Shown: in pieces, positions 874 to 28,288 of the stretch
Numbering within the stretch: position 1 is the first letter of the stretch
Layout of the letters: each line of letters starts with the position of its first letter
Origin: Bacteroidia bacterium
Lineage (GTDB): Bacteria; Bacteroidota; Bacteroidia; Cytophagales; Cyclobacteriaceae
NCBI GenBank assembly: GCA_030425425.1
Contig: JAUIAO010000024.1
Coordinates: 1 to 64,000 of the forward strand
DNA length: 64,000 bases
Direction of reading: 5' to 3'
Program-made: the position numbers and the translations under genes
The notes under the pieces: generated by a model
Database searches by the model: none
Seen by the model: only the letters and a program-made list of their open reading frames with translations
Told to the model about the DNA's origin: nothing

Positions 874-3800
874 CTAATGAAGATAGAATTTCAACTTTAT
901 TCCTAAATAATTAAGAATATAGACCCCTTTATTGAGATGATTTAAGTCTACTTTACTTCGGTGAGATTCTTCTTTTTTATAAACCAACTCTCCAGAAATT
1001 GAGTATACTTCTATCAATACTTTTCGATCTGGATCTGAGAGATTTACGTTTAGAATATTATTATACACGTAAACTCGATCATCTATTGCATTTGTTTCTA
1101 GAATAGATTCCTGGGTGATTAATTCAAATCGATCTAAAATGCCACCCTCTTCTGAAATGAAAGAATAAGATAAATTTCTAATGTCTGTGATTCTTGATTT
1201 TTCTTTGTCCCACAAATAAAGCTCACCATCAAATTCTGCTAAGTCAAATTGCAAATAATAGCTCCCTCTAGTTTCAATATTAATTCCAATTGGAATACGC
1301 TTCATGCTGGAAGTAACAGTTTGAATGGCAAGAGGAGAATTATTTTTAATTGTAAAAACAGAATATTCTGCTTTTGAATTAAATACAGGAGCATCGAAAA
1401 GCCTATTGATCTTTTCATCATTCACATCATCATTCCAAGCAATTAGTGTTTGTTTAAACAACCCATCATCTGATAATAGATTAACTCTTACTTTTTGAAG
1501 ACTCATATTTTTCCTAAAAAAATGATCATCCTCATTATTCCCAATGGCGCGCTGATCCTCTTCAAAAACCACATTAACATTACCAGAGCCGTCTAGCTGC
1601 ACAAAGAAGCCTTGGGATGACCCAATAGAACCATTATACCTACTTAGGTTGCCCATATTGCTATCTGTACTACCTGAAGCATTGATAACTATATAATCAC
1701 TATTACTTCCTCTACCTTGATCTGAACCATGATCATCCCAGATATATATCGCGCCAGTGTTGTTATTATTATCATTCATGAACTCGGTGAAAGAAATGGC
1801 AGCTGGAAAAGGATTAGCCACAAGGTTCCATCCTTCGTAGGAATCTTGTTCGTCTTGTGTGTATGTTCCTTTGTAAATGATGATACCATCATTTGGTTTA
1901 CCTGAAAAAACCAGCTCCTTCTGAAATGCCTGTGTGTATCCCTTACCAGGTATTAGTTGATCAGATAAGGCGTTTTCCCATCGCAAAAGACCATCACTAC
2001 CAAAGGGTGTAGTTTCATTGTATTTGTTAACATTAGATCCAAGAATATCTCCTGTTGCAGCCGTAGATTGTTCTACCGGTGATCCTACGAATGAATATCT
2101 GCCATTACTATATCTAGTACTTCGTTTGATGGTAATATTTCCAAGAAAATCATTCTCGTCAAAGGTTATTAAAGATGCTCCTGACTCTATCGTTAAGTTT
2201 CCTAATACCCCTAAATCTGAATTAACTATTAGAGTATTCCCAGATGTAACATTCATTTCTTGATTTTCATTAATGATAACAGCTTGTACTGACATATCAT
2301 TTTCCAAAGTATAATTCCCATCAATTAAAACATTATCAGTTTCTGTAGGGCCATTTCGGTTAGACCAGTTGGCTCCATCCCAAACGATAATACTTTTAGG
2401 TTGCACAGTAGCCTGATAAGTCAATCCTCCATCATTTGTTTCTAATAACACATCATACCTGTCATTCACAGGAGCTTCGAATAGGCTTCCGTTGATTTGC
2501 AAATCATTAAGATTTTCTCCAAAATTAAATCCGCTCCAATTGCTAACATTGAAACCATAAAAATCGCCATCATATAAAATAACTTCACCACTGAATGACC
2601 TTAAATTATTGTCATAATTCAATGGCTGATATGAACTTCCACTTTGAACCATCCAAATAGCACTCCCGTAATTCACGCTCCAAGTTTCTCCTTGATCATA
2701 AGTACCTATTTCAAAAAGATAAAAACCAGATGCACTTTCCATGACTTTCCATTTAGTCCCAAAATCCGAAATTTTACCCCCTGTAAAATCTGAATAAGTA
2801 ACGTTCTCAGGATTTAATTCTAAAAAATTCTGAGCACCATTAAATTTAAATTCTGAACCACCATCTATTGGAAAAACACCCCTCCAGACATATCCAAAAC
2901 CATTCGTTCCAACAAATTGAAGTCCTAGGTTCTTTTCTTCAGTTTGTTTGCTAGTGTTGATTTGCCAATCAAAAGCCTTAGGCTCAAAAATTATATCTGC
3001 CAAGTAGGCAGCAGACCACCCAGAACTTCTATTAGTTTCATCTGTTAAAAATTCAATGTAAATACTACCGCCAGTTGAAGTAACCGAACTTGGCAAACTA
3101 TTCCCTGTATATTGCCCCAATATGGATGATGTGTTATCATTACCATCAAAGACAATTAACCAATCATGATCTTGTTCAAGATCAAATTCATTGAAGGAAA
3201 TTGTAATACTTTTTGCATATGGTGGATCAATAAGCCATGAACAATTTGTTTTATTACCATAGTTTTTCACACCGCTTCCGTCATTAATTAATCCAGAATA
3301 AGCTGTTAAAGTATTTGTGCCTGAACAATATGAGGGATTTATAGATTGATATTCCAACTCCCACCCATCATGGTTGACAAACATATCTGAGTAGAACTTT
3401 ATAAAAATTGATCCTCCAGAACTTTGAATTGCTGGTGGTATATTGTTTCCAGTGAATGTTCCTAATAATGTCGAAGATTCTGAATCTCCATCATATATTT
3501 CAACAGCATCATAAATTGTTTTCCCATCTTCCTCCGGCAATTCGAGATCAAATTTTGTGAACCGAAGAATTATTGACTCGGCATCTGGGGGAGAAATCAA
3601 CCATGTACATTCCTGATTATTACAATAATTATCATCTCCACTCCCATCGGAAACCACACCAAAATCGGTATCAATTAATTCATTAGTGCTAGAACAAAGT
3701 GCTGCTCCATCACTAGTATAATTCGCCGTGAAACCAGAATAATTGATTGAATAATCTGATATGAACACAACAAGCATTTCACCTGTATTTGAAATGATTT

Positions 3801-6450
3801 CATCCGGAGGACTATTTCCAGTTAATACCGCTAGCTCATTCGAATCTGAAAACAAACCATCATAAATAATTACTCCATCATAACCTTCTTCCGTTTCAAA
3901 TTCACTAAATGAAAGCGTAACAGTTGAAGCACATGGAGGTGCTATATACCAATAGCAATTGTGATTATTCCCATAGTTTTCAGTACTCGAGCCATCTTCA
4001 AAAGTCCCATTAGATTCAGAAAACAATGACAAACCTTCGCAATAAGTAGATGTACCTATGCTGGTATAGTTTGCAAACCACCCACCTTCAGTATTGCTTC
4101 CATCAGACGAGAATCTAATTTTAATCGCACCAGAAGTTGAAACAACATCAGGAGGCAGAGTATTTCCCCACCAAACTAAAAGCAGATCATTATCCTCATA
4201 CGGACCATCATATACAAACACCGTATCATATTCAGCTTCTGTTTCAAATTCAGTAAAAGTCAAAGCAACCTGTTCTGCACCTGGTGGTGCTATTACCCAG
4301 GAACAGTTTAAGTTGTTGCTATAATTATCTGTACCACTTCCATCTGATAAAGTCCCAGAAGAAGCTGTCAAATGAGTAGTCCCATTACAAGTAAGATCTC
4401 CAGAAACACCGATACCTACAGCATACCAAGCATCTTTGACCGCTGTATATTCTGAGGATGGATTACCATACAAGTCTTCGGTTGATTGGAGAGAACCTAA
4501 GTAAGCATCATAATAGGTTGCATTGGATGGAAGATAATTGATCAAATTCCTATAGGCGATCTGTTGAGCCTTATCCATTCCAATCGGACTAACACTGAAT
4601 GCATTTCCTACGTCATTGGTTCCTGAGCCACCCTCCGAAAGTAGGTAAAACCAATAATTTTGGACACCACTATTTATGTGAACTCCACCATGATCATAGG
4701 ATATATTTTCAGGATTAATCCATCCTAACCCTTCATAGGTATCAGGTTGATTTTCAATATTTGGGTCAGCTAAACTTCTCATACTATTGGCACCAATTTT
4801 CAAACCTTCGCCAAGAAGCCAATCAGGTTCATATCCACTGTAAAACTCCACAGAAGTTCCCATGATATCTGCGAATGACTCATTCAAAGCTCCAGACTCA
4901 CCTTGATATGTCAACCCACCATTGCCATTGTTTCCAACAACCATGTGTGTAAACTCGTGGCCTTCAACATCTAACACAACCATAGGATTGTAATTTACCT
5001 TATCACCCATTCCATATGACATTACATTGTAAGGAGATGGAAAAGCCGATGCGTTATTAGGATACCCACTAATGTTTAATTTTTCTAAAATGATAGGATT
5101 TACAAACTGCCGAATTGGACTTCCATTTCCATCATAGCTGTCTCTACCAAATGTATTCCAATAGAAATCATACGTCACCTGCATTCCCCAATGAACATCT
5201 ACTGCAGGATGACCTGTAGCGCCATTTTCATAGCTACCACTATTTCCTGAATCGGCCCAAGAAATTGTTCCTGAGTCATTGGAAATTGAAATAGAACCAC
5301 CAAAATCATCTTCGTTCAAATTATCATAATCCCATATCTCAATGGAATATGGAGGATTGTTCAGATACATATTAACATCAAATGAGACAGGAGCAGATTT
5401 ATTGGATAAATGCTCCGAAACAAACACCACCTGATTACCCCCGTCAATTAACTTGATATAAAAATCTGGCAGATTGTCAGAAAAGAAATTATACCACCAA
5501 TCTTGATCAGCGTTGGTAATGGTAAAACTCGAAATATAAGGAACTCCCTCCCAGCTGTTATCTTCATTCACAAAATCAGAGTAATTATCAAACAAATATG
5601 GATTTGAATTATCAACTGTAGAATTAGTAGCATCATACGTTTCAATTCTTCTAGCATTATCTCTTAATCTATAGCCTCCTTCAAAGCTATCCGTTGTGAA
5701 AGTCTGGTTTCCGCTATAATAAGTATCGCCTGTTGCCTGCTCATCGGCGTGAGCAATTAAACTCACCTTATTCACTACTTCGCCTGATTTAGCATCAACA
5801 AACACATTATACATTTTCAATGGTTGAAGAGATTCAACCCTTACTTTATAGGCCAAATAGAATTGTTCACCAACTTGTGTAATAACCAATTCAACGGGGT
5901 TTTCTTTGATTTCACCTGTTACACCCATCTCCTTTTTGGCTGTAGAAAGTGCTTTCAATCTGGAGATTTTATGATTGACATCTATCGAAAGATCAGTCTC
6001 TAATTGACCATTGATTGATTCAACTATATCATTTTTGGAATGAATAAGCACCATGCTTTCATTCATCAGAACACCCTTATAGTATTGATAGAAACTTGAA
6101 TGAGAAAAACCCAACTGATCTTCGGTTTCATTCAAAAGTTTAAAAGTAAACTGATCTGAAAGTGAAAATTCGTTGGTTAAATAAGTCAGCCCATCATTTG
6201 TTTTTATCGGTGCGATGCGCTGATTTCCTCTTGAATCATTAGGTTTTAACAAGAACGATTTGGAATGTGATTTCACTTTTGATCCGTTCAGCTTCCTTGT
6301 AGGATTAGTAGTTGGTACTATTGGTGAAGAGGTACCATTTCCAATTTTCGATTTTAATGGATTTTGAAATCTCGTGAGATTTGGTACTGGTTTCTGAGCG
6401 AATAACTGAAATACCAGAAATATCAATATGGCAGTGGTTGTGTTTTTCAT
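874..6450 (-). CDS. Secreted M4 (thermolysin-like) metalloprotease with four CUB domains and a T9SS sorting tail
   Basis: This 1858-residue protein starts with a signal peptide (MKNTTTAILIFLVFQLFAQ). A fungalysin/thermolysin-type propeptide follows (about 80-235). The M4 catalytic domain carries zinc motif HEFTH near residue 500, the third ligand in NESFAD about 22 residues later, and the HINSGVQN segment with the catalytic histidine near 590. Four CUB-like repeats (about 687-1150) share the pattern SDGSG..NY.NN..C.W.I.PP. A long region without a recognised catalytic domain leads to a C-terminal tail typical of type A sorting domains (VYSISGELVYKK ... LNKGVYILN). It is thus probably exported by the type IX system and processed to an extracellular protease. 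It is the leftmost gene of the element and overlaps the end of the upstream lipoprotein gene by 4 bp, suggesting co-transcription. Its substrate is unknown. Confidence 0.93.
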   Translation of the reverse strand: MKNTTTAILIFLVFQLFAQKPVPNLTRFQNPLKSKIGNGTSSPIVPTTNPTRKLNGSKVKSHSKSFLLKPNDSRGNQRIAPIKTNDGLTYLTNEFSLSDQFTFKLLNETEDQLGFSHSSFYQYYKGVLMNESMVLIHSKNDIVESINGQLETDLSIDVNHKISRLKALSTAKKEMGVTGEIKENPVELVITQVGEQFYLAYKVRVESLQPLKMYNVFVDAKSGEVVNKVSLIAHADEQATGDTYYSGNQTFTTDSFEGGYRLRDNARRIETYDATNSTVDNSNPYLFDNYSDFVNEDNSWEGVPYISSFTITNADQDWWYNFFSDNLPDFYIKLIDGGNQVVFVSEHLSNKSAPVSFDVNMYLNNPPYSIEIWDYDNLNEDDFGGSISISNDSGTISWADSGNSGSYENGATGHPAVDVHWGMQVTYDFYWNTFGRDSYDGNGSPIRQFVNPIILEKLNISGYPNNASAFPSPYNVMSYGMGDKVNYNPMVVLDVEGHEFTHMVVGNNGNGGLTYQGESGALNESFADIMGTSVEFYSGYEPDWLLGEGLKIGANSMRSLADPNIENQPDTYEGLGWINPENISYDHGGVHINSGVQNYWFYLLSEGGSGTNDVGNAFSVSPIGMDKAQQIAYRNLINYLPSNATYYDAYLGSLQSTEDLYGNPSSEYTAVKDAWYAVGIGVSGDLTCNGTTHLTASSGTLSDGSGTDNYSNNLNCSWVIAPPGAEQVALTFTEFETEAEYDTVFVYDGPYEDNDLLLVWWGNTLPPDVVSTSGAIKIRFSSDGSNTEGGWFANYTSIGTSTYCEGLSLFSESNGTFEDGSSTENYGNNHNCYWYIAPPCASTVTLSFSEFETEEGYDGVIIYDGLFSDSNELAVLTGNSPPDEIISNTGEMLVVFISDYSINYSGFTANYTSDGAALCSSTNELIDTDFGVVSDGSGDDNYCNNQECTWLISPPDAESIILRFTKFDLELPEEDGKTIYDAVEIYDGDSESSTLLGTFTGNNIPPAIQSSGGSIFIKFYSDMFVNHDGWELEYQSINPSYCSGTNTLTAYSGLINDGSGVKNYGNKTNCSWLIDPPYAKSITISFNEFDLEQDHDWLIVFDGNDNTSSILGQYTGNSLPSSVTSTGGSIYIEFLTDETNRSSGWSAAYLADIIFEPKAFDWQINTSKQTEEKNLGLQFVGTNGFGYVWRGVFPIDGGSEFKFNGAQNFLELNPENVTYSDFTGGKISDFGTKWKVMESASGFYLFEIGTYDQGETWSVNYGSAIWMVQSGSSYQPLNYDNNLRSFSGEVILYDGDFYGFNVSNWSGFNFGENLNDLQINGSLFEAPVNDRYDVLLETNDGGLTYQATVQPKSIIVWDGANWSNRNGPTETDNVLIDGNYTLENDMSVQAVIINENQEMNVTSGNTLIVNSDLGVLGNLTIESGASLITFDENDFLGNITIKRSTRYSNGRYSFVGSPVEQSTAATGDILGSNVNKYNETTPFGSDGLLRWENALSDQLIPGKGYTQAFQKELVFSGKPNDGIIIYKGTYTQDEQDSYEGWNLVANPFPAAISFTEFMNDNNNNTGAIYIWDDHGSDQGRGSNSDYIVINASGSTDSNMGNLSRYNGSIGSSQGFFVQLDGSGNVNVVFEEDQRAIGNNEDDHFFRKNMSLQKVRVNLLSDDGLFKQTLIAWNDDVNDEKINRLFDAPVFNSKAEYSVFTIKNNSPLAIQTVTSSMKRIPIGINIETRGSYYLQFDLAEFDGELYLWDKEKSRITDIRNLSYSFISEEGGILDRFELITQESILETNAIDDRVYVYNNILNVNLSDPDRKVLIEVYSISGELVYKKEESHRSKVDLNHLNKGVYILNYLGIKLKFYLH

Positions 6451-11770: not shown

Positions 11771-13327
11771 TTAGCTTTTCAATAAACCATTCAGTTTCTT
11801 CCAGTGCTGCTTCGTCTGAGAATTGATCCTATTCTTTCTCATTGTTCCAGCCGCTTTAGTAGTATATGCAAGGAAATTCCCCCAATCATATCGATCTGTT
11901 TTCACAAAACCATTTTTTGATTTATCATGAATCCATATGCGTTTTCTATTAGCTCCTTTGTAGGAATATTTATTCAGGATTCTCCTCTTAAACAGCTCTC
12001 CATGATTAGGCCCAGACATAGCTGCATATCGTTTTGATCTTGCCACAGTCTTCTTCATCTTTCGATAATAACTAGACAAACTACCTGGTTTCAACCTACT
12101 TATAACTCCATCGAACTCAAACCCCAGATATACAAGTTTCTTATTTGAATTGATGAAACCACTTTCAAATTCTTGTTCACAGGATAATAGCTCTGCTTGT
12201 TTCTTAAAATGAAATATCTGTGTTTTTGATTTTTGGATTCTTAGGTTAACCTTATCAATTTCATCATGAAATAGTTCGATAATTCTATCTTTTTCTTGAA
12301 ATGGGCAGATTACTATCATATCATCTGAATACCGACGATATATACCTCCCACATCATTTAAAGCATTATTTATGGATTTATCAAAATCTAACAAATATGC
12401 ATTGGCCAGTACAGCGCTTATCGGTGTTCCTTGTGGAATACCATAGTTTCGAATCTTTTTGTTACCATCTTTATCCAACAGAATTTCACTTTTCTCATTT
12501 CTTGCATATTTCGCATGTTTGACCAGTTTATTCTTATTTCTAAGAAACTCCTCTTTCGTACAGAAGGCCACTACTTCTTCTTTTTTAAGGTACTTTATTT
12601 TTGAAACTCTCTTTTTCCGAGGATCTTTTAGTTTCCCAATAGAATCTCTCTGTTGAACAATTAGCTGATTCTGAAAGAGCTTAAAAATATCGATAAGATC
12701 AATGTATGAAAATCTGGAAAGGCTTTTATAGACATTAAAATGATCCTTAGGCAATCTATCTTCAGAATCAACCAATTGAGACCAGGAAGCAAGGAGTTTG
12801 TTATGGTCTAATTCATCGAAGAAACTCTTTATATCAAAAGTGATTACTAAGAAATGTTCTTTGGGATAATTTCTAATGTATTCAAAAACTTCATTGGCAA
12901 AATCAATATTACACTTATTTTGACCATTAGGGATATTGGGGTTAATTGGGATGGCTCTATATGCCAGAACCACGTCTCCCAAATTTTCAATTTTTAGTTT
13001 CTTTTCATACTCCTTATTTAGCTTTTCCGCATAGTAGCTATAAACCAGAGAATCTAAATGACCTGCGTAGTATAAATCTCGCGTTTTGGAATCTGACTTC
13101 CTTAATACTTTATCATTGGTTTTAATTGAGTGACCAGTTTTTTCATCATAAGTCTTTCTAAATTTCCTAACCTTCTTGACTTTATGAATAAATGGCAGAA
13201 ATGCATGTTTGGCTACCTTATCTGGATTGGAAACATATTTCTCTATCCACATTTGTCTTTCCTTAGGTAAAATCCTTCTATCAATGTGTGGATATTTTTT
13301 AAGCCGAAACCAGTCCTTTTTTTTCAT
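11771..13327 (-). CDS. drt2: DRT2-like antiviral reverse transcriptase (unknown-group class)
   Basis: 518 residues from the ATG at 13327; an upstream in-frame TTG at 13363 falls inside the RNA helix described below and is rejected. Reverse transcriptase motifs are in order: FDIKSFFDELDH (about 161-172), GIPQGTPISAVLANAYLL (about 295-313) and the catalytic YSDD near 333, then a basic thumb-like region. The N-terminal pattern (W-F-x-x-K-x-Y-P-H, then HAFLPFI, then YYAGHLDSLVYSYYAEKL) is what I recall for DRT2/UG2 enzymes. No maturase, HNH or integrase domain is present, and no retron VTG motif was seen. In known DRT2 systems the enzyme copies an upstream non-coding RNA by rolling circle, and the product gene arrests growth on phage infection. 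A matching RNA lies directly upstream. The subtype is recognition plus context, not a search result. Confidence 0.8.
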   Translation of the reverse strand: MKKKDWFRLKKYPHIDRRILPKERQMWIEKYVSNPDKVAKHAFLPFIHKVKKVRKFRKTYDEKTGHSIKTNDKVLRKSDSKTRDLYYAGHLDSLVYSYYAEKLNKEYEKKLKIENLGDVVLAYRAIPINPNIPNGQNKCNIDFANEVFEYIRNYPKEHFLVITFDIKSFFDELDHNKLLASWSQLVDSEDRLPKDHFNVYKSLSRFSYIDLIDIFKLFQNQLIVQQRDSIGKLKDPRKKRVSKIKYLKKEEVVAFCTKEEFLRNKNKLVKHAKYARNEKSEILLDKDGNKKIRNYGIPQGTPISAVLANAYLLDFDKSINNALNDVGGIYRRYSDDMIVICPFQEKDRIIELFHDEIDKVNLRIQKSKTQIFHFKKQAELLSCEQEFESGFINSNKKLVYLGFEFDGVISRLKPGSLSSYYRKMKKTVARSKRYAAMSGPNHGELFKRRILNKYSYKGANRKRIWIHDKSKNGFVKTDRYDWGNFLAYTTKAAGTMRKNRINSQTKQHWKKLNGLLKS

Positions 13328-13345: not shown

Positions 13346-13668
13346 GAATGAATGAGGAGCCAACTACGAGGCATTGCTTTTATTCCATAAGGAATGAAGT
13401 ATGCATGCAACTTTGATGTTCCTGAGAACATCGCCCCAATTCAAGTCGGGTAAATAGTTGTACTATATTTAAACCATAATCTAAAGACCATGATATATAC
13501 AGTAGTAGAGTCCATTGCCTTGCTTCTTATAAGCAAATTGGCATTATATTGGCAATCAGAAGAAATAATTCAACTGATAGCTTGGATAATTGAAATGACT
13601 CTTCCCTAATAGTTTTTCATATTAGGCAAATCCATAAAACGCTATACTTCGGCTCTCCTCATTCATCC
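13346..13668 (-). ncRNA. Candidate DRT2-type template RNA upstream of the reverse transcriptase
   Basis: On the minus strand the 5' arm (13668-13651) and 3' arm (13361-13346, GGCTCCTCATTCATTC) pair over 16 bp with one 2-nt bulge and one G-U pair, closing an RNA of about 323 nt. Inside are further stems: GATGTTC/GAACATC with a 4-nt loop (13415-13432), ATTCC/GGAAT (13382-13395), TTGCTT/AAGCAA (13520-13536) and ATTGCC/GGCAAT (13514-13556). The 3' arm ends 18 bp before the reverse transcriptase ATG. Position, length and closed ends match the template RNA of DRT2 systems. Stop-free frames in its centre are listed as findings. Transcription has not been shown. Confidence 0.72.
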
Positions 13669-17028: not shown

Positions 17029-18420
17029 TCATCTTCTTTTTCTCCCAAAAATTATTCTAATAACAGTTTCTTCTACCTCCTCGTCATCAGTGCTGTCTGT
17101 ATCATCAGCCGCATCATCTATCGCTTTCTTTTTTGCTTTATAGGCAATCAAGGAGTCAATTGCGGCAGCTGTGCCTTCTATTTCTGCTTCTTCAATCGGG
17201 TCATTAGAGTATTTGATACTTTTTATTGCACCAATATCTTCATAAAAGACAAACTCGGCACCATTGAAATCTGCGGGAAGGACTCCAACTGGCCCGAGCT
17301 GCGGAAAATACATTGAAAAGGAATTGCTTCCATCCTTATCTTTCAAATCCTTAAAGGATTTTAGCTTTTTACCATCATATTCTAACTCAATGCTGTATTT
17401 AGGAGGAATCGTATATCGAAGGAACCCCTTTTCTTTTTTAGGTTGGGTAATGGCTTCCTCTACAGCATGTGAAATGATTTGATTTGATATTATTTTTAAT
17501 GATTTAGATTTATTCGAATCAAAATCTTTAGTTAACTGTGTATCAATTCCTTGATTATCTACTAATGGTACGTTAATTCCGTTTTCTGGATCTATTTGCA
17601 TTAATTCTGCATTCGGCAAAGTGGGCACATATTCAAAGGCTATCCAGTGTGTTGTTTTTTTCACAGATCCTAGAATGGCCTTTTTAATCTCTTCCATTCG
17701 ATTTTCAATGCTTACAACTCTATATTCAAGAGCATCTTTGGATACGTTTGGTTCAACATTCGATAGCATATCCAGCTTACCTTGAGACAACTTATTCAAT
17801 TCATCTAGAAGTACAATAATTCTTTTCGCTTCAATTGACACTGAGGGCTTATCATATCCCATTTCCTTTTGAAAGTCTTCGAATTTTGATTTCGCAGTGC
17901 CTAAAAGCGGATATAGATTAGATGCTAGATTGGCACCCATTTCTACACCTTTCGATACGATATCAATCGTTTTGTCTTTTTGTGCAAATTCTCCAGATGA
18001 AATAATCCCATCTTTACTAAATGATAATTTGAGGACCTGGGAGTAGAATTTCAGATTTTTGTAGGCAATGATATAGTGGCGGTCAGGGTCCGGAAGTGTA
18101 ATTGGCTCCATGATGATTCTATCCCCAAGTGAAAACTTGTCCTTTACACTAACTGGAGTCCAACCATAATTGACCTGTATCAATTGGAGTATTTCTGATT
18201 GTTCGGTTTCTGGAAGTTTATGAATCAACCCTTCCTTCAAAGTATTTACCGTGATCGGAACTCTTACTTTAAGTATAGATTTAGGTAGATAATAACTGAT
18301 CATTTCGCTATACTGCACCTCATCAGGTATTTCCTGATCAGCATCATAAGCAATCATTGTTGTCTTGCACGCAATTCCAATGAATAACACCATTGAAATT
18401 GCTAAGTAATTTGTTTTCAT
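17029..18420 (-). CDS. Predicted lipoprotein encoded between hsdR and hsdM, function unknown
   Basis: 463 residues starting with a signal peptide ending in a lipobox (LFIGIAC), so predicted to be membrane-anchored by lipid, probably in the periplasm. The body has alternating beta-rich and helical segments, with a helical stretch around 150-240. A long acidic segment (DDAADDTDSTDDEEVEE) precedes a basic tail (IIFGRKRR). No nuclease, methylase or known anti-phage motif was seen, and I cannot name a family. It lies 15 bp after hsdR and 54 bp before hsdM on the same strand, so it must share their transcript. Type I systems act in the cytoplasm, so a cell-envelope partner in the operon is unexpected. 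It could be a separate defence gene inserted into the operon. Confidence 0.75.
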   Translation of the reverse strand: MKTNYLAISMVLFIGIACKTTMIAYDADQEIPDEVQYSEMISYYLPKSILKVRVPITVNTLKEGLIHKLPETEQSEILQLIQVNYGWTPVSVKDKFSLGDRIIMEPITLPDPDRHYIIAYKNLKFYSQVLKLSFSKDGIISSGEFAQKDKTIDIVSKGVEMGANLASNLYPLLGTAKSKFEDFQKEMGYDKPSVSIEAKRIIVLLDELNKLSQGKLDMLSNVEPNVSKDALEYRVVSIENRMEEIKKAILGSVKKTTHWIAFEYVPTLPNAELMQIDPENGINVPLVDNQGIDTQLTKDFDSNKSKSLKIISNQIISHAVEEAITQPKKEKGFLRYTIPPKYSIELEYDGKKLKSFKDLKDKDGSNSFSMYFPQLGPVGVLPADFNGAEFVFYEDIGAIKSIKYSNDPIEEAEIEGTAAAIDSLIAYKAKKKAIDDAADDTDSTDDEEVEETVIRIIFGRKRR

Positions 18421-26881: not shown

Positions 26882-26915
26882 AAAAACTAAGTGTTTAGAA
26901 TTGATAGAATCTCAC

Positions 26916-28193
26916 ATGTTCATGAGAAAATTATACTTACCTATAAAGTTTCGAAATCACGGATTACACATCTATTGCACTCACAAATCTTGCAAAAAGG
27001 TAGTCACAAAAGCTGTCTGTAAGCATGTGGAAAATCAGCGATTTCAAAGCCGTATCTACAACCCACACACTAAACGACAGGACTGTATAAAATCATATGA
27101 TACCAAAGATGCCAGTGAAGCATTCGCCAAGCATTTAGAGTATAAAGAGTATCTCGTTAAGTGTAATTTTCAGAAGGAAGTGAAAAATCCGGTAACTGTC
27201 CGGTATCAGTTTATCAAAGAATGCACGATCAATTATCTTAATTTTCTCAAAGACATTGATGTTCCAAAGTATGAGCGTAAGAACAGATCCCGACAATACA
27301 TTACGGATGAAGAAAGGTATTTGTACCGTTTTTTGAAGCTCATTCAATCCATAGAAGGGCAGGTAAGTAAGTTTCCAGTGACGGCTATATCTCCAAAGCA
27401 CGTAGAAGCGTGGGATGAGTATGTAGTGTCGCTGGAGCTATCTAACAGGTCGTACAACGCACATATCAAGTCAGTAAGGTATTTGTTTGATCACATCATC
27501 AAACGTCTGGAAATCAATATTAAAAATCCATTTGAGCGGGTATCTATCCGATCTATCAACTACGACCCTGAGATTATTACAGTTGATGAGTTTGAAAAGT
27601 TGCTTTCTTTGATAACACATGAAAACGGGAAAGCTACGAAAGGGAAAAATGAAAAGCCAATAAACTACTACCGTCCTTGGTTGGCGAAGGTGTTTGTTTT
27701 TTCGCTATTGGTTGGGGAGCGTAGGGATAGAATTGTCTTGCTCCGATGGTCCGACATTAAGGACAATTACATTGGCATACCAAACTGGAAAGTGAATCGA
27801 AGTGCTAAAACTACTAAACAGTATATCAGCTACACTCCTATCACAAAGGATTTGGCCGAGATATTGACCCAATTTGACGTAGCAGCGAACGAAAATGAAT
27901 TTATAGTAGCACCAGAAATGACCAACCGAAATACGCTAAAGCAATTACTAACCAACGCATTTAGTCATTACTGGAAACAAACTGGCAGTAAAAAGAAGGT
28001 GACTTTTAAGAACCTTCGAAAAACATATATTACCAGAATTACAGACCTGATCGGGGAAAAAGCGATGTTTATAAAGCATGGCAATGATAAGACTTCAATC
28101 AAGCATTATCTGGATAAAAAGGAGCTTATTTCTGAGACAAGAAACTTAAAACTTTATGATATTTCTAACTGGCTACATAACACCAACACATAA
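26916..28193 (+). CDS. Tyrosine recombinase (integrase) of the element
   Basis: 425 residues from the ATG at 26916; a TTG at 26901 would add five. The N-terminal part has a Cys-rich segment (IYCTHKSCKKVVTKAVCKH) that may bind metal, then an SAM-like core-binding domain (about 100-215). In the catalytic domain the first arginine lies in LVGERRDRIVLLRWSDI near 267. The H-x-x-R box reads FKNLRKTY near 365, with asparagine where histidine is usual. HGNDKTSIKHYLDK supplies the last histidine and the nucleophile tyrosine near 397. It ends about 50 bp from the att core and carries two arm sites at its 3' end. It presumably integrates and excises the element at tRNA-Arg. Confidence 0.9.
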   Translation: MFMRKLYLPIKFRNHGLHIYCTHKSCKKVVTKAVCKHVENQRFQSRIYNPHTKRQDCIKSYDTKDASEAFAKHLEYKEYLVKCNFQKEVKNPVTVRYQFIKECTINYLNFLKDIDVPKYERKNRSRQYITDEERYLYRFLKLIQSIEGQVSKFPVTAISPKHVEAWDEYVVSLELSNRSYNAHIKSVRYLFDHIIKRLEINIKNPFERVSIRSINYDPEIITVDEFEKLLSLITHENGKATKGKNEKPINYYRPWLAKVFVFSLLVGERRDRIVLLRWSDIKDNYIGIPNWKVNRSAKTTKQYISYTPITKDLAEILTQFDVAANENEFIVAPEMTNRNTLKQLLTNAFSHYWKQTGSKKKVTFKNLRKTYITRITDLIGEKAMFIKHGNDKTSIKHYLDKKELISETRNLKLYDISNWLHNTNT

Positions 28194-28242: not shown

Positions 28243-28288
28243 AATGTGATTCCACCAGGACTCGAACCTGGAACCTACTGCTTAGAAG
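28243..28288. repeat. attR: 46-bp direct repeat inside tRNA-Arg
   Basis: Identical to 591-636. It covers the tRNA from the anticodon loop to the 3' end plus 4 bp beyond, so insertion rebuilt an intact tRNA gene from element-supplied sequence. Confidence 0.92.

Follow-up and report, generated by a model that had tools for sequence, protein, structure and literature searches.

The window, as the 64,000-nucleotide stretch of DNA analysed here is called, carries a DRT2-like reverse transcriptase (RT) behind a putative structured RNA, and raises the question of whether and where a divergent DRT2 system hides a Neo gene. The preprint that named Neo reported that its annotation is harder in more divergent DRT2 clades, hinting at possible alternative mechanisms (PMC11100668), and nothing on Neo or a DRT2 RNA in Bacteroidota was found in the open-access literature searched (titles and abstract starts only, without supplementary material such as fig. 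S6 of the preprint or a later journal publication). The answer reached below is that the RNA of this divergent DRT2 retains the architecture and logic of the Klebsiella system and differs in its words and in a phylum-type promoter. Copying, phage trigger, translation and toxicity are inferences drawn from the Klebsiella studies.

A divergent DRT2 reverse transcriptase

The RT gene (11771-13327, minus strand) encodes a protein of 518 aa, and the codons of its catalytic YSDD motif were read from the sequence at 12320-12331 (minus strand). The protein matched PADLOC Drt2 at 1.9e-137 with 457 bits, against 70 bits for the next other family and 50 bits for PADLOC Drt9. NCBIfam Drt2 was the best model at 357.4 bits, below its equivalog cut-off of 390 bits, as expected for a divergent Drt2 member. 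The best PDB match was the Klebsiella DRT2 structure 9c0i (1.1e-44), to which RT residues ~215-294 remained unaligned. The protein was filed as DRT2 despite the NCBIfam cut-off because the PADLOC, PDB and RNA tests concur. An earlier sequence-only reading had named both the YSDD motif and a DRT2-type system at this site; the former held at its position, and the latter held by PADLOC, by the best NCBIfam model, by the PDB match and by alignment to 9c0i.

Relatives of the RT were retrieved from 65 of 295 family genomes at E <= 1e-3 (many of them other RTs), from 24 of 390 order genomes at 1e-25, from 8 of 395 phylum genomes and 7 of 395 class genomes at 1e-40, and from 8 of 179 genomes around genome G642 at 1e-60. 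Two scans of viral contigs gave no RT relative, phage records gave three RT matches at ~30% identity, and 27 plasmid records bore an RT match, with three regions examined. Loci with an E-value weaker than 1e-20 or a match starting past RT residue 40 were excluded, which removed L012 (broken), L048 and L024-L032 (other RTs), and the duplicates L001 and L052 were removed as well. In an unrooted tree of 53 RTs, built without L013, L020, L022 and L050, a branch (95/93) separated the window's kin, on one side, from three gamma-proteobacterial DRT2s and from a second Bacteroidota clade; this phylogenetic check places the kin within a Bacteroidota DRT2 clade.

Several other DRT2-like genes were seen along the way. 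L064, on the Marivirga plasmid NZ_CP129969.1, is a broken DRT2-like gene in four match pieces that is annotated only as a short hypothetical gene. L051 (G000:C119:204022-205467) is a second DRT2-like RT in the window's own genome; it is 40% identical and falls in the RT tree with the other Bacteroidota side. L016, L017, L018, L019, L021, L023, L044, L045 and L049 make up one more Bacteroidota clade of DRT2s, which in the unrooted tree clusters with those of gamma-proteobacteria.

A predicted covarying RNA upstream of the reverse transcriptase

The predicted non-coding RNA, taken from one arm of its closing helix P1 to the other, occupies 13346-13668 (minus strand) and is supported by a fold z of -6.0 and by conserved blocks in 17 aligned loci, while its true transcript ends are undetermined. 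The minimum free energy (MFE) of the 323-nt RNA is -101.3 kcal/mol versus -70.5 +/- 5.1 kcal/mol for 100 dinucleotide shuffles, none of which was as low, and the fold includes several inner stems. P1 is formed by a 5' arm, GGATGAATGAGGAGAGCC (13651-13668, minus strand), and a 3' arm, GGCTCCTCATTCATTC (13346-13361, minus strand), which pair over 13 plus 3 bp to give a 16-bp helix around a 2-nt bulge; a T-rich stretch and then the RT start come after the 3' arm, 18 nt separating the end of the arm from the ATG at 13327. At gathering scores no Rfam family matched the RNA, the sole matches in the window being two tRNAs.

P1 was judged by an alignment-free duplex test and excluded from the column count because MAFFT columns shift within it. 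Across 24 loci, the duplex energy of each 5' region with the 3' region of its own locus averaged -26.9 kcal/mol versus -17.4 kcal/mol with 3' regions from other loci, and none of 5000 permutations reached the own-partner mean. The own partner ranked first in 15 loci and within the top three in 21, the others being L067 (rank 4), L009 (rank 12) and L056 (rank 24). In L056 the RNA lies far from the RT start assigned in the analysis, and in L003, L006, L056 and L065 the 5' window was anchored on ACGTTT by a fallback or at an off-site match. It is thereby shown by sequence comparison that the P1 arms covary among homologues. RNAalifold, run on the joined and very divergent RNA ends, returned no structure.

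An alignment of the regions upstream of the RT in the window and 16 relatives (17 loci) is held together by fixed blocks, which run 5' to 3' as the 5' arm, ACGTTTTATG, an ATTTCA-like word and then GCAAA, a variable middle, GTAAAGATAC and then ATTT, GGGGCG, GCATGTA and the 3' arm. One of the conserved blocks reads GCGTTTTATGG in the window (13632-13642, minus strand) and ACGTTTTA in most relatives.

Three inner helices on the minus strand were subjected to the column count in the nine nearest loci. P2 pairs GAAGTAT (13644-13650) with ATACTTC (13396-13402), with 100% of cells paired and changes on both sides in four of seven pairs. A stem directly 5' of the template (13605-13626), formed by CCTAAT (13621-13626) and ATTAGG (13605-13610), has 94.4% of cells paired and five of six pairs changed on both sides. 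The third helix, GGGGC (13433-13437) with GCCTC (13368-13372), crosses P2 and is therefore a pseudoknot, resembling the 5-bp pseudoknot of the Klebsiella DRT2 RNA (PMC12596737); all of its cells are paired (100%), yet three of its five pairs are invariant and only one is changed on both sides. Taken together, the three helices had 98.1% of cells paired versus 80.6% in shuffles, changes on both sides in 10 of 18 pairs, a level reached by 2 of 500 shuffles, and a covariation score of 0.631 versus 0.257 in shuffles and at most 0.179 with the partners slid. One of the five measures, that of further pair types, was not outstanding (104 of 500 shuffles as high), and the helices were chosen by viewing the very alignment that was tested, so that selection favours them. 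The MFE structure also holds a hairpin, GATGTTC/GAACATC (13415-13432, minus strand), between the pseudoknot strand and P2.

The sequence-only reading had described paired arms of 16 bp with a 2-nt bulge, 18 nt from the RT ATG and enclosing further stems, had inferred a divergent RNA partner, and had suggested a search for covariation of the arms. The described features held in sequence and fold, the covariation was found by the duplex test in the 24 loci, and the divergent RNA partner held, with the inner helices covarying in nine loci.

Predicted template edges, putative jump words and an open frame

The sequence-only reading had described the whole as a template RNA with closed ends. This was corrected: the paired ends are an outer clamp, and the template is inferred to lie inside, at 13456-13596. 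Copies of ATTT at 13596 and 13455 are 141 nt apart. Word 1, ATTTCA (13591-13596, minus strand), marks the 5' edge of the template, where the cDNA repeat would end, and word 2, ATTTAC (13450-13455, minus strand), is the predicted re-annealing site of the cDNA end. The predicted 141-nt template between them (13456-13596, minus strand) is of 3n length, and its joined complement has a single stop-free frame. Read in the coding sense, one cDNA repeat (13456-13596, plus strand) gives MIYTVVESIALLLISKLALYWQSEEIIQLIAWIIEI-VVLYLNHNLKT, a hydrophobic repeat of 47 residues that begins at a predicted ATG (13490-13492, plus strand) and re-enters from M without a stop. The repeat is the predicted Neo protein, inferred from sequence alone, and its translation is likewise an inference.

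The same rule, in which a pair of ATTT-like words bounds the template at set distances from the blocks on either side, was applied to the relatives. With hand-set sites, a 3n repeat with a stop-free frame on the joined complement was obtained in 13 of 17 loci, and in 14 of 17 after the anchor of L011 was shifted by one base to the aligned block, a shift made after the first result had been viewed. Frame-blind scoring models recovered all 17 hand sites in leave-one-out runs. When seven held-out loci were tried, five were placed confidently, and all five were 3n and open in the expected frame. The models gave no confident site for the other two, L070 and L071, which by eye have repeats of 144 and 153 nt with an open frame; they were excluded from the test counts, as was L042 (180 nt), whose site came from a rule that already demands an open frame. 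In total, 19 of the 22 loci with placed edges have a 3n repeat (108-162 nt) that is open in the frame which the promoter box fixes. In shuffled middles of these 19 loci that frame was open at a rate of 2-28%, with the 1-in-3 chance of 3n length still to be applied; no joint probability is given because the loci are kin. No template site was found in two members of the window's clade, L043 and L047.

The two words of a locus match each other better than those of different loci. Word 1 and word 2 of the same locus agreed at 87 of 110 positions versus 67.0 by permutation, and in 13 representatives at 52 of 65 versus 42.9 (p 0.0002), which fits a need for the end of the cDNA to re-anneal to word 2.

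The open frame spans 36-60 codons per repeat, hydropathy of the predicted Neo was above the shuffle mean in 21 of 21 cases (z 0.9 to 4.1), and the gaps between Neo sequences of close pairs, in those examined, were of 3 nt. No amino-acid selection on Neo was visible in the main clade, where 40 of 154 single-change codons were silent with ~25% expected (ten dependent pairs).

Looser searches were also run elsewhere. A free scan of 25 other loci for any shared word of at least 5 nt with an open 3n frame gave many chance solutions, and no claim is drawn from it. Under a stricter rule that also required the promoter boxes, solutions were obtained for 3 of 32 other loci, namely L042 (in frame), L070 (two solutions) and L018; the last is in a different frame and is probably due to chance.

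A predicted promoter across the joint

On the plus strand of the joined repeats, a -33 box, CTTG (13581-13584), at the end of the previous repeat is followed by a -7 box, TATATTTA (13464-13471), at the start of the next one, and only once joined do they stand 20 nt apart. In joined DNA, 21 of 22 loci have a TTG 20 nt upstream of TAnnTT, whereas on the unjoined strand TTG is at the -33 place in 0 of 22; a TAHHTT box is present in all 22. The Bacteroidota -33/-7 consensus is TTTG/TANNTTTG, the latter revised to TAHHTTTG, and the -33 element is far less evident in Flavobacterium johnsoniae (PMC6847099). The usual gap between the two boxes is ~19-20 nt. The fit to the consensus is incomplete, as the window's own -33 box is CTTG rather than TTTG and the last base of the -7 box is the consensus G in 7 of 22 loci and A in 13. 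The constant spacing is in part a product of the method, since both promoter boxes belong to the blocks from which the edges were placed. What the method does not impose is that blocks from opposite ends of the template, once joined, resemble the promoter of the phylum. Judged by motif only, the joint would form a Bacteroidota-type promoter.

Loci outside the rule and a second clade

In three loci that form a sister clade of the window's branch, L004, L005 and L006, the repeats are 148 nt long and lack a stop-free frame. From the ATG their frame meets or crosses the joint and then stops, giving 46, 39 and 47 aa, respectively, and they retain the words and the promoter geometry. In their codons, 16 of 37 single changes were silent with ~25% expected (three dependent pairs). 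Either the jump slips by one base in these loci or the gene is finite. A bolder reading is possible, though less likely than not: with 148 nt per repeat the reading frame would change at each joint, and joining may write a promoter for a finite gene of 39-47 aa in L004-L006. On this view DRT2 could be a switch of general use that builds a missing promoter out of RNA, of which the endless ORF is one form only, with jump word and promoter rewritten per host phylum. The frame shared by the three loci reads KKHTSHKVY... and ends at or shortly past the joint.

A second Bacteroidota DRT2 clade is represented by L014, L015, L022, L040 and L041, with 192, 198, 195, 189 and 189 nt between ATTG-like words. 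Like the window, these loci have a 3n repeat and one common open frame (5 of 5, shuffles being open in 1-4%); the five are close relatives, and their sites were picked by eye. They differ in the longer repeat (189-198 nt), in a joint of GGAAC-N18-GTTA instead of the TTG/TAnnTT of the window's clade, and in the RT, which falls in another clade (four treed rows; L022 is absent from the tree). GGAAC recalls the -35 boxes of ECF sigma factors. The site could not be placed in L038, a sixth member of this group, and the template was not resolved in the L016 clade or in L034 to L059 with L051.

Comparison with known systems

The window shares with the DRT2 (UG2) system of Klebsiella pneumoniae (PMC11100668, PMC12039810) the RT family, an upstream RNA with a 5-bp pseudoknot, a central template between copies of a short word, a stop-free 3n repeat and, as predicted for the window, a promoter created across the repeat joint and a hydrophobic Neo. 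The Klebsiella RT has 425 aa versus 518 aa in the window. The Klebsiella word is ACA, with a proposed re-annealing role for ACA-1 and ACA-2 (PMC11100668), whereas that of the window is ATTT and those of its relatives are ATT- (e.g., ATTT/ATTC), ATAC- or TTC-like. The Klebsiella promoter has TATAAT and the window's clade has Bacteroidota -33/-7 boxes, and the repeat is 120 nt in Klebsiella and 111-129 nt in its near orthologues versus 141 nt in the window and 108-162 nt in the fitting loci. As a control, the published ACA rule gave an open 3n repeat in L002 (129 nt) and L062 (105 nt) and none in L063.

DRT9 and DRT10 are likewise phage-defence systems with RNA-guided synthesis of homopolymer or tandem-repeat DNA, but are described as protein-primed (published abstracts); DRT9 is further set apart by the 50 bits of the window's RT with PADLOC Drt9 versus 457 with Drt2.

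Proposed mechanism and rival explanations

The window locus is likely a DRT2 phage-defence system of a Bacteroidota host, with another jump word, another promoter and an endless Neo frame, for which there are no expression, cDNA or phage data. Sequence comparison shows the RT family, the covarying RNA structure, the template edges, the 3n length, the open frame, the promoter geometry and the matching words. Jumping, phage trigger, second-strand synthesis, translation and toxicity are inferred by analogy from the Klebsiella experiments (PMC12039810, PMC11100668), and the repeated copying by template jumping that the earlier reading had assumed likewise still rests on the Klebsiella work.

In the proposed mechanism, the RT would bind the pseudoknotted RNA at 13346-13668 through its P1 clamp, P2 and pseudoknot, and would start copying just inside 13455, heading to 13596. 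Once ATTT at 13596 had been copied, the cDNA end AAAT would melt off and re-anneal to ATTT at 13455 for the next round, so that 141-nt repeats would accumulate over repeated rounds. In double-stranded DNA, every joint would present a Bacteroidota sigma-A-type promoter (CTTG, 20 nt, TATATTTA) that is absent from the linear genome. The ATG and the stop-free frame after it would give a hydrophobic Neo of 47 aa per repeat, which would halt growth of the infected cell.

Three rivals were weighed. The first holds that tandem cDNA is made and acts as DNA or RNA without being translated. In its favour, L004-L006 retain the words and promoter geometry without an endless frame, and no amino-acid selection on Neo was seen; against it, the frame is open over 36-60 codons per repeat with hydrophobic products in 21 of 21, and defence in Klebsiella is abolished by stop mutations (PMC11100668), which leaves it very improbable.

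The second holds that the RNA is only a structured cofactor or a leader of the RT, the middle being a spacer that is open by chance. P1, P2 and the pseudoknot would be conserved in a cofactor too, and the lack of amino-acid selection also suits it. Against it stand the 19 of 22 loci that are 3n and open in one set register (2-28% in shuffles for the frame alone), the 3-nt gaps between the close pairs examined and the matching of edge words within loci, and there is very little room left for this view.

The third, an ordinary small plus-strand gene without DNA synthesis, draws on the linear frame from ATG 13490, which meets a stop soon past the template, and on the finite frame of L004-L006, but is hardly tenable given that the -33 TTG is in place in 0 of 22 unjoined versus 21 of 22 joined loci, that amino-acid conservation is lacking, that the codons from the joint to the ATG are open as well, and that the locus adjoins a Drt2, a known relative of which does produce a joint of this kind.

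With the translated tandem repeat as the preferred reading, one rule predicts how long the repeat is, which word is used for jumping, the promoter and the sequence of Neo in a Bacteroidota clade, and the open question on Neo in divergent DRT2 clades becomes testable at the bench with exact predictions. A known defence trick would thereby be extended to a branch where the Neo gene was hard to find, and it is suggested that a promoter concealed within a non-coding RNA is matched to the RNA polymerase of the phylum to which the host belongs.

Genomic setting

The sequence-only reading had located the system on an integrative element, and this held. A 46-bp direct repeat in the 3' part of a tRNA-Arg gene (28243-28288, strand not given) has its copy at the far end of the element (591-636, strand not given), and an integrase-like gene (26901-28193, plus strand) adjoins the tRNA-Arg; its Phage_integrase match (2.4e-4, 21.4 bits) is below the Pfam cut-off of 27.1. 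The repeats and the integrase-like gene bound an element of 27.7 kb (591-28288), which also carries McrBC-like restriction genes (McrB- and McrC-like) and genes of type I restriction (HsdM- and HsdS-like). A gene of 463 aa (17029-18420, minus strand), flanked by the HsdM-like gene and the next large gene, has only a sub-threshold DUF4831 match, and at the far end of the element a large thermolysin-like protease with CUB domains is encoded at 874-6450.
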